Positions 20,315 through 26,846 of a DNA stretch of 39,766 bases are shown here, piece after piece (the first letter of the stretch is position 1; each line of letters begins with the position of its first letter). The notes beneath the pieces are model-generated. The model did no database searches and was not told the origin of the DNA. It worked only from the letters and a program-made list of their open reading frames with translations. Where the stretch lies: positions 1 to 39,766 of the IMG/VR virus record IMGVR_UViG_3300044701_001167, one strand, 5' to 3'. The position numbers were made by a program, and so were the translations under genes. This stretch comes from a virus.

Positions 20315-20524
20315 TCAGAAGGAGACGGCGATCACGAATTCACCTGAAGGTTTGCGGTAGATCATGGAGTAGAGATCCTTACGCTGGCGACCGGTGCGAG
20401 GGCTGAAGCCTTCCCAGACAGTGCCGTCAAATCCCTGATTGATGAGGTGCTTGCGGAGGTTTACCAGTTCTGCGGTGTTTTCGGTGACTTGGAAGCTGCG
20501 GCCGTTAATGGTTGCGGTGGTCAT
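20315..20524 (-). CDS. Hypothetical protein (69 aa) with duplicated leader
   Basis: MTTATINGRSFQVTENTAEL, then LRKHLINQGFDGTVWEG and a C-terminal strand pair ending FVIAVSF: a small alpha/beta protein of unknown function. It is transcribed alone, from a leader (20531-20592) that is copied almost perfectly upstream of the 66-residue gene at 21392, to the terminator at 20285. The short unit with its own leader and terminator suggests strong expression. Confidence 0.75.
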   Translation of the reverse strand: MTTATINGRSFQVTENTAELVNLRKHLINQGFDGTVWEGFSPRTGRQRKDLYSMIYRKPSGEFVIAVSF

Positions 20525-20530
20525 GTTTCC

Positions 20531-20592
20531 GATGGGTGGTGGAGGGCCTCCCCTCCGATGTCCTAATAGTAGCGCACGGCGTTACGGCTGGC
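20531..20592 (-). promoter_or_regulatory. 62-bp leader, copy 1
   Basis: Identical at 61 of 62 positions to 21600-21661; the difference is C at 20577 versus T at 21646. Read on the minus strand it carries a TACTAT -10-like box (20566-20571) and then GGAGGG-GAGG-CCCTCC, a 6-bp hairpin in the predicted short 5' leader. It ends six bases before the ATG at 20524. No canonical -35 box is seen. A duplicated promoter with a leader hairpin or operator is the best reading. Confidence 0.75.
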
Positions 20593-20616
20593 CATGGCAC
20601 GGGTGGCCAGTTCACA

Positions 20617-20632
20617 TAACGTCATGCGCTAC
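20617..20632 (+). repeat. Inverted partial copy of the leader core
   Basis: TAACGTCATGCGCTAC is the reverse complement of GTAGCGCATGACGTTA, matching 15 of 16 bases of the plus-strand core of leader copy 2 and 14 of 16 of copy 1. It lies 32 bp from copy 1 in opposite orientation and overlaps the end of the zinc-motif gene. Confidence 0.5.
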
Positions 20633-20843
20633 GGCGTCGTGCGCGTGTCTTGGCGACCCGAGCGGCACGATCGGCGCGGCCTTCGGGGGTAAGTGCAGTC
20701 CAGCAGCGGCTGCATAGGACGCCATGGATGCCGGTGTGGTTGCGGCCGCAGGCGCTGCAGATCAGCGGCTGTGCTGGTGCCAGCCGGCCGGCTTGGCGTT
20801 CGCGGTAGCGGCGCTGCCGTTCGGCGTTGGTGGGGTCGCTCAC
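20622..20843 (-). CDS. Small zinc-motif protein (73 aa)
   Basis: MSDPTNAERQRRYRERQAG, a basic helix common at the start of small phage proteins, then CSACGRNHTG and CSRCWTAL, a four-Cys zinc ribbon, and a basic C-terminus. Nucleic-acid binding is likely. It overlaps the upstream gene by four bases (20840-20843), so it belongs to the cluster starting at 21592 or 21338. Confidence 0.75.
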   Translation of the reverse strand: MSDPTNAERQRRYRERQAGRLAPAQPLICSACGRNHTGIHGVLCSRCWTALTPEGRADRAARVAKTRARRRSA

Positions 20844-21007
20844 CAGTCGCCCTCCTGCTCAATGCGGACGAAACCGGGCATGAGCTCTTGAGCGGTGAGC
20901 AGCGCATGCCTACGGCTGGTCGCGAGCATGGCGGCGGTGCTGCCGTCGGGGAACACTGCACGCCATGGCCGCAGGCGGCTGGTGGTGCGGACGGTGGGAT
21001 CAGGCAT
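20840..21007 (-). CDS. Hypothetical protein (55 aa)
   Basis: Starts at ATG 21007 (MPDPTVRTTSRLRPWRAVFP) inside the last codons of the upstream gene. It contains DGSTAAMLATSRRHALLTAQEL and an acidic end. Family unknown. A longer frame exists upstream but would run through the neighbouring gene, so the short start is preferred. Confidence 0.6.
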   Translation of the reverse strand: MPDPTVRTTSRLRPWRAVFPDGSTAAMLATSRRHALLTAQELMPGFVRIEQEGDW

Positions 21008-21338
21008 CGTCAATGTCCACCATGGCAGGCCAGTTGGGCATGGTCGGGTCGTAGGCGTCTTCAAGTGCAGGGCGCAGCACGTCGCGGCTGATGGTGATGG
21101 CGCCGCCTTCAACGCGCCATTGGTGAAAGCCGTTGCTGATGGCGGTCTGGGCTAGCAGGTCGTCGACGGTGGGCACCGGCTCAGGCTCGGGACCAAAGGC
21201 CTCGACCTGGGCGGCGATACGATCAGCGGTTCCCATGGCGTCGAACTCTTCGATGGTCATTGCGGCATCGAGATCGACGTACTCGCGCCAGAGCGTCCAG
21301 CTGTTGGCAATCTCGGCGTAGGTGTGCGTGCGTGACAT
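21000..21338 (-). CDS. Hypothetical protein (112 aa)
   Basis: An acidic protein, MSRTHTYAEIANSWTLWREY, then FDAMGTADRIAAQVEAFG and a C-terminal strand region with WRVEGGAITISRD. No family recognised. It lies 53 bp after the 66-residue gene and overlaps the next gene by eight bases. Confidence 0.65.
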   Translation of the reverse strand: MSRTHTYAEIANSWTLWREYVDLDAAMTIEEFDAMGTADRIAAQVEAFGPEPEPVPTVDDLLAQTAISNGFHQWRVEGGAITISRDVLRPALEDAYDPTMPNWPAMVDIDDA

Positions 21339-21391
21339 GGCGTCGGTGCGGTGGTATGGGTGCCGGATGGGCTCCGGCGGGCCGTGGTGGG

Positions 21392-21592
21392 TCAGGCGGT
21401 CTGCAGCTCGGTCCAGAGCTGATCAGCGATCTGCTGATGGGTGCCTTTACCGAACATGGCGTCGAGCGCCTTCTTGGGGCTGATGCCGGTTTCAACCATG
21501 GTCTTGAGCACTGCAGCGATGGCCTCTTGACGGCTGCAGCCGGTGGAGGTCATGGCGTAGTTGAGAGCGTTGATGATTCCGGGGTGGGTCAT
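21392..21592 (-). CDS. Hypothetical protein (66 aa) with duplicated leader
   Basis: MTHPGIINALNYAMTSTG, then CSRQEAIAAVLKTMVETG and SPKKALDAMFG: a fully helical small protein that may bind DNA or protein. Its leader (21600-21661) is nearly identical to that of the 69-residue gene at 20524, yet the two proteins are unrelated, so only the control region was duplicated. It heads a run of four minus-strand genes. Confidence 0.7.
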   Translation of the reverse strand: MTHPGIINALNYAMTSTGCSRQEAIAAVLKTMVETGISPKKALDAMFGKGTHQQIADQLWTELQTA

Positions 21593-21599
21593 GGTTGGT

Positions 21600-21661
21600 G
21601 ATGGGTGGTGGAGGGCCTCCCCTCCGATGTCCTAATAGTAGCGCATGGCGTTACGGCTGGC
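21600..21661 (-). promoter_or_regulatory. 62-bp leader, copy 2
   Basis: The second copy of the leader at 20531-20592, with one substitution (T at 21646). It ends seven bases before the ATG at 21592. The same TACTAT box (21635-21640) and GGAGGG...CCCTCC hairpin are present. Confidence 0.75.
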
Positions 21662-21689: not shown

Positions 21690-21875
21690 TCACGCCAGCA
21701 GCTTGCGCACCTGGTAGCGGCTGCAGCCGAGGTGATCGGCGATGCGCTGCTGACTCCAGCCGGCATGGCGCCACCGGCGTGCGCGATCGGTGCGGCTCTC
21801 GGTGGCCCAGGCGAGGAACAGGACGGGCAGCAGCAGCAGCGCCAGCGTCCAGGCAATGAGGCAGGTGGTGGTCAT
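21690..21875 (-). CDS. Membrane-anchored helix-turn-helix protein (61 aa)
   Basis: Starts at ATG 21875. Residues 5-24 (CLIAWTLALLLLPVLFLAWA) form one transmembrane helix. After a basic stretch (RARRWRHAGW) comes a helix-turn-helix of the SQQRIADHLGCSRYQVRKLL type. A membrane-bound DNA-binding protein this small is unusual. It faces the recombinase gene divergently across an inverted repeat and may regulate it. Confidence 0.6.
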   Translation of the reverse strand: MTTTCLIAWTLALLLLPVLFLAWATESRTDRARRWRHAGWSQQRIADHLGCSRYQVRKLLA

Positions 21876-21951: not shown

Positions 21952-21999
21952 CTAGCGCTTAGTCGGCGTACGGCTTGCTGTGGTCCGCCTAAGCGCTAG
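21952..21999. promoter_or_regulatory. Inverted repeat: candidate attP or paired operator
   Basis: CTAGCGCTTAG (21952-21962) and CTAAGCGCTAG (21989-21999) are perfect 11-bp inverted arms at the ends of a 48-bp segment, 28 bp before the serine recombinase start. Minimal attP sites of large serine integrases are about this size, are built on inverted arms and often lie beside the integrase gene. Each arm is itself nearly palindromic, so two repressor dimer sites in the divergent promoter region are an alternative. Confidence 0.5.
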
Positions 22000-22026
22000 C
22001 GTCTTGTCACAGACGTTCATGCGCCC

Positions 22027-23331
22027 GTGATCATCGGCTACGCCAGGGTTTCGACCGACAAGGCCGATCAGGACATGTCGATCGCCGAGCAGGTCCGCCA
22101 GCTCAAGGCCGCCGGCTGCGATCGCGTCATTGCCGAACGACGCAGCGCACACCAGGGCGCCAGGCCCGGCTGGCAGGAGCTGCAGGGCCTCGTCGCCGCC
22201 GGCCGGGTGCGGCGTGTCGTCGCCGTCTCGCTGGCCAGGCTCAGCCGCCAGGGCGAGGACGTGCCGTTCCTGCGGATGTGCGCACGCCGCGGCGTCGAGG
22301 TGCAGCTGCTTGATGGCACACCAGCGGACACCGCCGATCCAGCCGGCAAGCTGCTCACCGGCGTCCTGTCACTGGTGAACGAGATCGACTCGGACATCAA
22401 GGGCATCAACGTGCGCAACGGCATCGCCCGTCGCAAGGCGCAGGGCCACTACGCCTGCGGGCGGGTGCCGTTCGGCTACCTGTACGACGGCTCCCAGGTG
22501 GTGCCGCACCCTGAGCACTGGAGCCAGGCGCGGCAGATCTGGGAGCAGCTGGAGAGCATGGAGTGGAACATTCCCGGCACCATCCGCCGCTTTGGCCTGC
22601 CGTGGAGTGGCCGCGGCCTCGGGCGCTGGGTGGACAATCCGATGTTGCGCGGCATCGTCAACAACGAACCGGACCGGGTGCAGCCGCTGATCAGCTGGGA
22701 GGAATACCAGCACGCAAGGCGGCTGATTGAGTCGAGGCGCATCGTGCGCACCAGGGCGCCGCGTGTCATCAAGGTGTTCTCTGGTCTGATGCGTTGCGCC
22801 GGCTGTGATCACCGGATGCATTACGCCAGAGCGCATGGCAAGCCGCGGCTGAAATGCACGTACCTGCATTGCAGGTGGTGGGGCCGCGGCCTGGCGGAGT
22901 GGAAGGTGAAGGCGCAGTTCCTGGAGGCGCTGCGTGAAGCTGCCGAGCAGGTGGCGACTGTTGCGACAGTGCCGGTGACGGTGGCACCACCAGATGACAC
23001 GGCGAAGCGGCAGCAGATCGCGCAGCTGGAGGCGCTGCAGGCGCAGGGTGTGCCGGGACTGGAGGCGACGATCGAGGCGATGCGACTGGAGCTGCTGGCA
23101 CCACCGCCGGTGCTGTCAGCGAACTGGACCGCCTACCGGGATCTGATTCTGCGACCGGGAATCCTGGAGGGCTTCACGGTGGAAGAACTCCGGCCACTCG
23201 CGCTGGAGTTCATCGCGGAGCTGGTCTATGTCGGTGATCCCGACCGGATCGAAGTCAGGCTGCGCAATGGCTCGGGCGATGCCGCGGCGGATGGCAGTGC
23301 GGGCGTCCACGCGACAGGCTCACAGGTCTGA
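22027..23331 (+). CDS. Large serine recombinase (integrase)
   Basis: A 434-residue site-specific recombinase. The catalytic domain opens IIGYARVST with nucleophile Ser9 and has LARLSR (Arg71, Arg74), where Ala70 replaces the usual Asp. The recombinase domain (about 140-240) has GRVPFGY and LRGIVNNEPD. A zinc ribbon follows with Cys257, 260, 277 and 282, then a coiled coil (about 325-365). The length is at the short end for phage serine integrases. The GTG start is fixed by the conserved IIGYARVS; an ATG at 22019 is out of frame. Integration into the host chromosome is the likely role, which makes the phage temperate. No tyrosine integrase is present. Confidence 0.92.
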   Translation: MIIGYARVSTDKADQDMSIAEQVRQLKAAGCDRVIAERRSAHQGARPGWQELQGLVAAGRVRRVVAVSLARLSRQGEDVPFLRMCARRGVEVQLLDGTPADTADPAGKLLTGVLSLVNEIDSDIKGINVRNGIARRKAQGHYACGRVPFGYLYDGSQVVPHPEHWSQARQIWEQLESMEWNIPGTIRRFGLPWSGRGLGRWVDNPMLRGIVNNEPDRVQPLISWEEYQHARRLIESRRIVRTRAPRVIKVFSGLMRCAGCDHRMHYARAHGKPRLKCTYLHCRWWGRGLAEWKVKAQFLEALREAAEQVATVATVPVTVAPPDDTAKRQQIAQLEALQAQGVPGLEATIEAMRLELLAPPPVLSANWTAYRDLILRPGILEGFTVEELRPLALEFIAELVYVGDPDRIEVRLRNGSGDAAADGSAGVHATGSQV

Positions 23332-25940: not shown

Positions 25941-26846
25941 ATGAGTTGGTGGCACGATCAGGCCGGCCGCTTCCCGCTGCTCACGCCCACCCAGGAGACG
26001 CTCCTGGGCCGGCAGGTGCGTGAATGGCTGGATCATCCTGACCCCGTGCCACCTGCACTGGAGCGCCGGGGGAAGCGCGCACGCGATCGGTTCGTGCGCG
26101 CCAACCTCAAGCTGGTCATCTCCTTCGCCGAGAAGTACCGCTCCGTTCCGCAGCAGTATCACGACGACCTGATCCAGGCCGGCAACCTCGGCCTGATGCG
26201 TGCCGTTGAGAAGTTCGATCCTGCCCGCGGCTACAAGTTCTCGACCTACGCCTACTGGTGGATCCGCCAGGGGATCCATAGCTTCCTGGAGCATCACGGC
26301 CGCTGCATCAAGCTGCCGACCACGCACAGCGCGCAATACACCCGAATCACCACCGCTGTCCTCGATCTGCAGGCGCAGCTCGGTCGTCGCCCCACACGGG
26401 CAGAGGTGGCGGATCATCTGGACCTGAAGCCGGAGGCAATCGAACGCATCACCTCCAGGCCGGTCGCCACCCTGTCGCTGGATCAGCCGAACCTACGCAG
26501 CGACGATGGCGGCATCCTCAGCGACGTCCTCCCCGATCCTGCCGGGCCGCTGCTGGAGCAGGTGGAATCCACCGAGCAACTGGAGCAGCTACTACGTGCT
26601 GTCCATCAGCTTGACGGCCGTGCGCAGCGGATCGTGTTTGATCAGTTTTTTTCCGCGACACCCTCGACCCTGCAGCAGCTGGCGACGGCAGAGAACCTGA
26701 ACCGCGAGACGATCCGCGCGATCATCCACCGCTCGCTGCTTCGGCTGCGGCTGATCCTCTCCGGCAGTTCACAGGATCCGCACCCGCCAACGTGTGAACC
26801 AGTGCAGCAGGGCACGCAGCTTGCCTTGTTTGGGCCGCTGGAGTGA
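25941..26846 (+). CDS. Sigma-70 family RNA polymerase sigma factor
   Basis: A 301-residue sigma factor. Region 1.2 is FPLLTPTQETLLGRQVREWL. Region 2 (about 48-120) includes RFVRANLKLVISFAEKYR, DLIQAGNLGLMRAVEKFDP, KFSTYAYWWIRQGI and the turn to KLPTTH, the hallmark of primary-type sigma factors. Region 3 spans about 125-200 and region 4 about 230-285 (LQQLATAENLNRETIRAII, a helix-turn-helix). It should redirect host RNA polymerase to phage promoters. GGAGG (25927-25931) lies nine bases before the ATG. A 10-codon frame, ATG 25904 to TAG 25936, precedes it and could be a leader peptide. Confidence 0.92.
   Translation: MSWWHDQAGRFPLLTPTQETLLGRQVREWLDHPDPVPPALERRGKRARDRFVRANLKLVISFAEKYRSVPQQYHDDLIQAGNLGLMRAVEKFDPARGYKFSTYAYWWIRQGIHSFLEHHGRCIKLPTTHSAQYTRITTAVLDLQAQLGRRPTRAEVADHLDLKPEAIERITSRPVATLSLDQPNLRSDDGGILSDVLPDPAGPLLEQVESTEQLEQLLRAVHQLDGRAQRIVFDQFFSATPSTLQQLATAENLNRETIRAIIHRSLLRLRLILSGSSQDPHPPTCEPVQQGTQLALFGPLE

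Follow-up and report, generated by a model that had tools for sequence, protein, structure and literature searches.

Why do two unrelated small genes of one phage begin behind what is almost the same sequence? The question is raised by the minus strand of a 39,766-nucleotide IMG/VR virus record (the window, by which we mean the whole stretch analysed), where a comparison of the window with itself shows 20592..20531 and 21661..21600 to be identical at 61 of 62 positions, just as the initial annotation, made from the letters of the DNA, had reported. Most small phage genes defy functional assignment by sequence, and the shared leader described here unites 57 unrelated families of small genes as one expression class and offers a handle for finding more.

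The repeated leader in the window

The 62-bp pair is by far the best interspersed repeat of the window once a tandem-repeat array at 479-927 is set aside, the next two-copy matches being about 30 nt long at 75-79% identity. Copy A (21600..21661) stops 7 bases short of the ATG at 21592 that opens a 66-aa gene (21392..21592), and copy B (20531..20592) stops 6 bases short of the ATG at 20524 that opens a 69-aa gene (20315..20524), all of them on the minus strand. The two products had been called unrelated, and they do fall into separate BLASTP clusters and have different structure models, a four-helix fold for the 66-aa protein and a low-confidence beta-rich fold (pLDDT 69) for the 69-aa protein. 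Both copies also contain the two elements noticed at the outset, a TACTAT box (21635..21640 in copy A and 20566..20571 in copy B) and a GGAGGG/CCCTCC inverted repeat (GGAGGG-GAGG-CCCTCC at 21610..21625 in copy A; 20541..20556 in copy B). Folded singly, the window copies do not reach significance (z -1.7 and -0.9), and the support for a hairpin comes from comparison with other phages.

The large terminase encoded in the window shares 82% identity with its counterpart in the freshwater Synechococcus phage S-LBS1, and from its sequence the window phage is a Synechococcus siphophage. It encodes a serine integrase (22027-23331), and the repeats occupy a minus-strand block adjoining this gene, in the order copy A, the 66-aa gene, a 112-aa gene (21000..21338) and a 55-aa ORF (20840..21007) in the operon of copy A, a gene for a 73-aa zinc-ribbon-like protein (20622..20843), copy B, the 69-aa gene and an intrinsic-terminator-like hairpin with a T run (20304-20285) that ends the cassette. 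Just 5' of the integrase, at about 21952-22003, lies an inverted repeat, CTAGCGCTTAG ... CTAAGCGCTAG, which is a candidate operator or attachment-site element. At 21690-21875 the minus strand encodes a 61-aa protein whose N terminus is membrane-like and whose C terminus is of the HTH_23 type, and a similar-looking 64-aa family is found behind leaders in other phage loci (L061, L092, L101, L112). Further away, an RpoD-like sigma factor is encoded at 25941-26846 on the plus strand, with similar genes in most leader-bearing records, and a collagen-like G-X-Y repeat protein, probably part of a tail fibre, at 13-1107 on the minus strand.

Distribution and layout of the leader

A search of related phages for further copies upstream of other genes had been proposed, and many such copies were found. 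An exact 35-mer led to one more phage (two contigs), in which it stands upstream of a third unrelated gene, and relaxed patterns gave 85 copies that passed a promoter and ORF filter, with about 34 protein families downstream. A covariance model, R2, which matches the window at 21605-21640 and 20536-20571 (47.7 bits each), found 94 distinct elements in the viral contigs fetched, a count that refers to a scan of collected viral loci, much of the collection having been gathered by a GGAGG pattern. An ORF that starts with ATG and is at least 35 aa long lies within 45 nt after 91 of these 94 elements, and the cargo sorts by BLASTP clustering into 57 unrelated protein families with a median length of 68 aa. 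Whole records hold from one to five copies per phage, mostly clustered within a few kilobases; a contig of 33.7 kb (G003) has three leaders, and none was detected with R2 in S-LBS1. Collections of isolated phages and of plasmids yielded no close match, and the weak ones were in the Synechococcus phages DSL-LC03, which has a related start without an R2 match, and S-CREM1 (R2 E 2.7e-5, with a longer stem). The S-CREM1 site (L145:3001-3041), 73 nt upstream of a 318-bp CDS, is likely a copy of the leader; S-CREM1 is a cultured phage of 178 kb and belongs to a different family, the Kyanoviridae. A strict-pattern search of bacterial genomes returned 22 matches, none of them in cyanobacteria, which were taken as chance, the pattern being too strict to exclude host copies; the element is so far known here only from phages.

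It is hardly credible, given this distribution, that the pair is a functionless segmental duplication that arose by chance in the window phage. The identity of the window copies does extend over a spacer that drifts in other phages, so recent copying, which the initial annotation had offered as one explanation, may have raised the match to 61 of 62, but copying does not explain an element that recurs before 57 gene families in many phages with a fixed geometry. The same recurrence contradicts a random segmental duplication among related phages and supports the other view taken at the outset, that the control region is under selection.

Comparison between the copies shows a promoter-like box, a fixed geometry, a hairpin with compensatory changes and the lack of a Shine-Dalgarno (SD) motif ahead of many unrelated cargo genes. 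The layout is constant, and consists of a TANNNT -10 box, 6 nt, a presumed start A, 2-3 nt, a hairpin of 5-6 bp, ACC, a C/A-rich tail and the ATG. TANNNT stands at a constant distance in nearly every copy, the presumed start 7 nt past it (21628 in copy A and 20559 in copy B) is an A in 64 of 68 copies, and the stem begins 2-3 nt past this predicted start in nearly all of them. A structure-based scan that prescribed nothing but the -10 box, five pairs, ACC and an ORF gave a sharp peak of 73 matches where the spacer following the -10 box is 6 nt long, other lengths giving 0-16. In a control on reversed sequence, matches without GGAGG but with an ATG numbered 3, against 8 in the real sequence, and the presumed start was an A in 9 of 10 real matches as against 0 of 4 reversed ones. 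The tail that leads from the hairpin to the ATG (21593..21609 in copy A) has an A+C content of 83%, and in none of 63 distinct leaders does it contain an SD-like 4-mer, whereas 9 of 20 other genes of the window have one; Thr is the usual second codon, in 51 of 68 cases. Cassettes often consist of leader, one or more genes and terminator, tandem cassettes are seen, and terminator-like hairpins end many cassettes (as in the window and in L139, L099 and L213), though not all.

The initial annotation had suggested a phage-specific promoter, and one part of this suggestion stands. With TANNNT at a fixed distance the leader likely contains a promoter, and the combination of promoter and hairpin is well supported by the alignment of copies. 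Specificity for a phage sigma factor is not supported, the -10 box being ordinary and no -35 consensus having been found. A sigma70 region 2 match is present in most leader-bearing records, the window included, and would suit a promoter that the sigma factor of the phage itself recognises, the hairpin being incidental, but S-LBS1 carries a sigma gene and no detected leader, G003 carries three leaders and no sigma gene detected in its 33.7 kb (the record may be a fragment), and the sequence outside TANNNT varies while the hairpin covaries; we regard this explanation as highly unlikely.

The hairpin and its proposed role

Because sequence patterns favour their own sequence, homologues of both window proteins were gathered by protein and not by leader, and their upstream regions were then inspected. 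Most of these homologues keep the hairpin in its position with different stems (GAACCG-GAA-CGGTTC, GGAGCC-GAGA-GGTTCC and GGAGGC-GAGA-GCTTCC, and further GCAGG/CCTGC, GGCC/GGCC and, with one mismatch, GGGAGCC/GGCTGCC). Three homologous loci (L151, L169 and L172) are without the hairpin, which is thus not essential to their genes. In an alignment of 37 sequences 97.8% of the cells are paired, an upper estimate because some rows (though not those of the homologues) had been chosen by a structure filter that inflates pairing, and double, compensatory changes occur at four of the five pairs. The covariation of 0.298 exceeds that of all 500 shuffles (mean 0.099), and controls with a slid alignment reach at most 0.139. 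Stems differ even within a single phage; L213 has GGGGG/CCCCC, GGGG/CCCC and GGAGGC/GCCTCC, a separate gene and terminator going with each of them, and stems also differ within L224 and within L226.

The proposal of an RNA switch is not supported either, the leader being a single short hairpin whose stems vary even inside one phage and for which Rfam, searched with the window and four loci, gave no match. Since the spacing of the half-sites varies and the stems vary even in one phage, a reader of fixed DNA or RNA sequence fits poorly; variable stems would fit a hairpin whose mere presence matters, and the comparison speaks for RNA structure at the 5' end of the transcript rather than for an operator in the DNA or a ligand that recognises a particular sequence. 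Two other functions were ruled out, sequestration of an SD motif, the GGAGG arm being separated from the ATG by more than 25 nt and missing from many stems, and termination or attenuation, there being no T run past the leader hairpin.

A repressor acting in immunity or in Aca-like control could bind the inverted repeat as a DNA operator overlapping the transcription start. The repeat sits at the presumed start in a temperate phage with an integrase, and the ESAS inverted repeats of cluster K mycobacteriophages have been suggested to bind DNA-binding proteins (PMC3203893). The gap between the 5-bp half-sites, however, ranges from 4 to 8 nt, so that half-site and spacing are not fixed, and the stems change pair by pair and differ within a genome, leaving no constant half-site; we consider such an operator unlikely.

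The balance of the evidence leans somewhat toward the repeat being a portable module of moron type, with a protective 5' hairpin cap and open, SD-less initiation as its likeliest role. The cap is preferred because the hairpin lies 2-3 nt from the presumed start, the position of the 5'-terminal stabilisers of E. coli. In these temperate freshwater Synechococcus phages a -10 promoter of host type, TANNNT, would start the transcript at the A 7 nt downstream, and the transcript would fold almost immediately, with 2-3 unpaired nt followed by the hairpin of 5-6 bp, after which ACC and an unstructured C/A-rich tail without an SD motif would lead to the ATG. Behind the module would come between one and four small accessory genes, forming a cassette of moron type that often has a terminator of its own. 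As a 5'-terminal cap, the hairpin would guard these short SD-less mRNAs from 5'-end-dependent decay (5' sensing by RNase E, and RNase J) and would keep the landing site of the ribosome open. The start point, the stabilisation of the RNA, the SD-less initiation and the timing of expression are inferred. In E. coli a 5' stem-loop is an established stabiliser of mRNA (Emory 1992 and Bouvet 1992, as cited in PMC3997798). One marine cyanophage raises RNase E in its host (PMC9692554). Cyanobacteria have both RNase E and RNase J and no close RppH homologue (PMC10989914), which makes 5'-end-dependent decay less certain in them than in E. coli. GGAGG is kept more than a generic hairpin or cap needs, which hints at an extra constraint.

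Next after the protective cap ranks an RNA-binding regulator, a possible but doubtful reading in which the hairpin would be the RNA target of a protein or small RNA from phage or host, the adjacent zinc-ribbon protein being a candidate. Aca2-type control of anti-CRISPR leaders is a comparable case of regulation through an RNA target. Of 66 leaders, 38 have a gene with the zinc-ribbon motif within 2 kb and 18 have it directly upstream, the operon in the window includes an AcrF31-like gene, hairpins are identical within some phages (L089 and L139) and GGAGG/CCTCC is the commonest stem, all of which would suit a regulator; yet stem and loop sequences differ between copies of one phage, and many leader loci have no zinc-ribbon gene nearby.

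Cargo genes and comparison with known systems

The 112-aa protein in the operon of copy A has a fusion-like structure, with an AcrF31-like N-terminal domain (residues 1-51 match PF25703 with 62 bits, the cut-off being 27) and a C-terminal half that matches small ORFs in five other loci (L086, L149, L156, L077 and L213). Over 53 residues the AcrF31-like domain shares 57% identity with the gene that opens a Pseudomonas phage operon annotated with AcrF3 and AcrIF5, and in a second group of cyanophages an AcrF31-like gene stands directly behind a leader with the stem GGGGC/GCCCC. The AcrF31 homologues of Pseudomonas phages are without the leader, so the leader tracks the phage or host group and not the gene. 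A literature search found no paper bearing the name AcrIF31. Given the anti-CRISPR relatives, sequence similarity suggests that the leader class may be rich in counter-defence genes. Among other neighbours and cargo, the zinc-ribbon protein, small and basic, recurs beside leaders and may mark a site of cargo exchange, and a 166-aa leader-borne protein with a DnaJ domain (L036:1658, L044:1186 and others) is the commonest cargo of one phage group.

Taking up again the preferred reading of a 5' cap, we tentatively suggest that a standard promoter, a cap hairpin and a terminator could be interchangeable parts for swapping unrelated anti-host genes, in which case the leader would tag unknown anti-defence genes and its short homology may serve recombination. 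One promoter-hairpin module before dozens of unrelated tiny genes of freshwater cyanophages is at once a puzzle of RNA biology and a marker for gene finding, and the hairpins are a natural set, in the same place but of different sequence, through which the role of 5'-terminal structure and of SD-less initiation in cyanobacteria can be put to a direct test.

In a literature search that was not exhaustive we found no description of the leader, and there is no Rfam family for it either. The nearest analogue is the SAS/ESAS of cluster K mycobacteriophages (PMC3203893, PMC11373665), short conserved sequences that likewise recur within one phage ahead of many small non-structural genes unrelated to one another; the ESAS also resemble the leader in having a putative promoter and an inverted repeat whose sequence varies between phage groups. 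Unlike the SAS, which sits at the ribosome-binding site, the cyanophage hairpin follows a -10 box and is without an SD motif, and the 13-bp SAS sequence, GGGATAGGAGCCC, which lies no more than a few nt from the start codon, is absent from the C/A-rich cyanophage tails with their lack of SD-like 4-mers. The authors who described the 17-bp imperfect inverted repeats of the ESAS saw little evidence that these form an RNA hairpin, whereas the 5-6 bp arms in the cyanophages show compensatory changes. The 5'-terminal stem-loop stabilisers of ompA and papA type would be alike in position, the cyanophage stem beginning 2-3 nt past the predicted start, but they belong to single host genes and the cyanophage leader is one standard unit across dozens of genes. 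The halovirus HF2, as described in the abstract of PMC8707807, also has repeated intergenic units carrying promoters, but it is an archaeal virus, with AT-rich promoter motifs and not a hairpin leader.

The operon in the window resembles the anti-CRISPR operons of Pseudomonas phages under Aca control in that it includes a gene homologous to the one that opens an acrIF3-acrIF5 operon, and differs in that the Pseudomonas copies are without the leader and no aca gene was recognised in the cyanophage. As with morons, the cassettes are small accessory genes set among phage genes and varying between relatives (57 cargo families occupy leader sites, and no leader was detected in S-LBS1), with a putative promoter of their own, the fixed TANNNT, and in many cases, though not all, their own terminator. 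They differ from morons in having a promoter and 5' UTR of one standard form, shared by unrelated cargo genes and by different phages.
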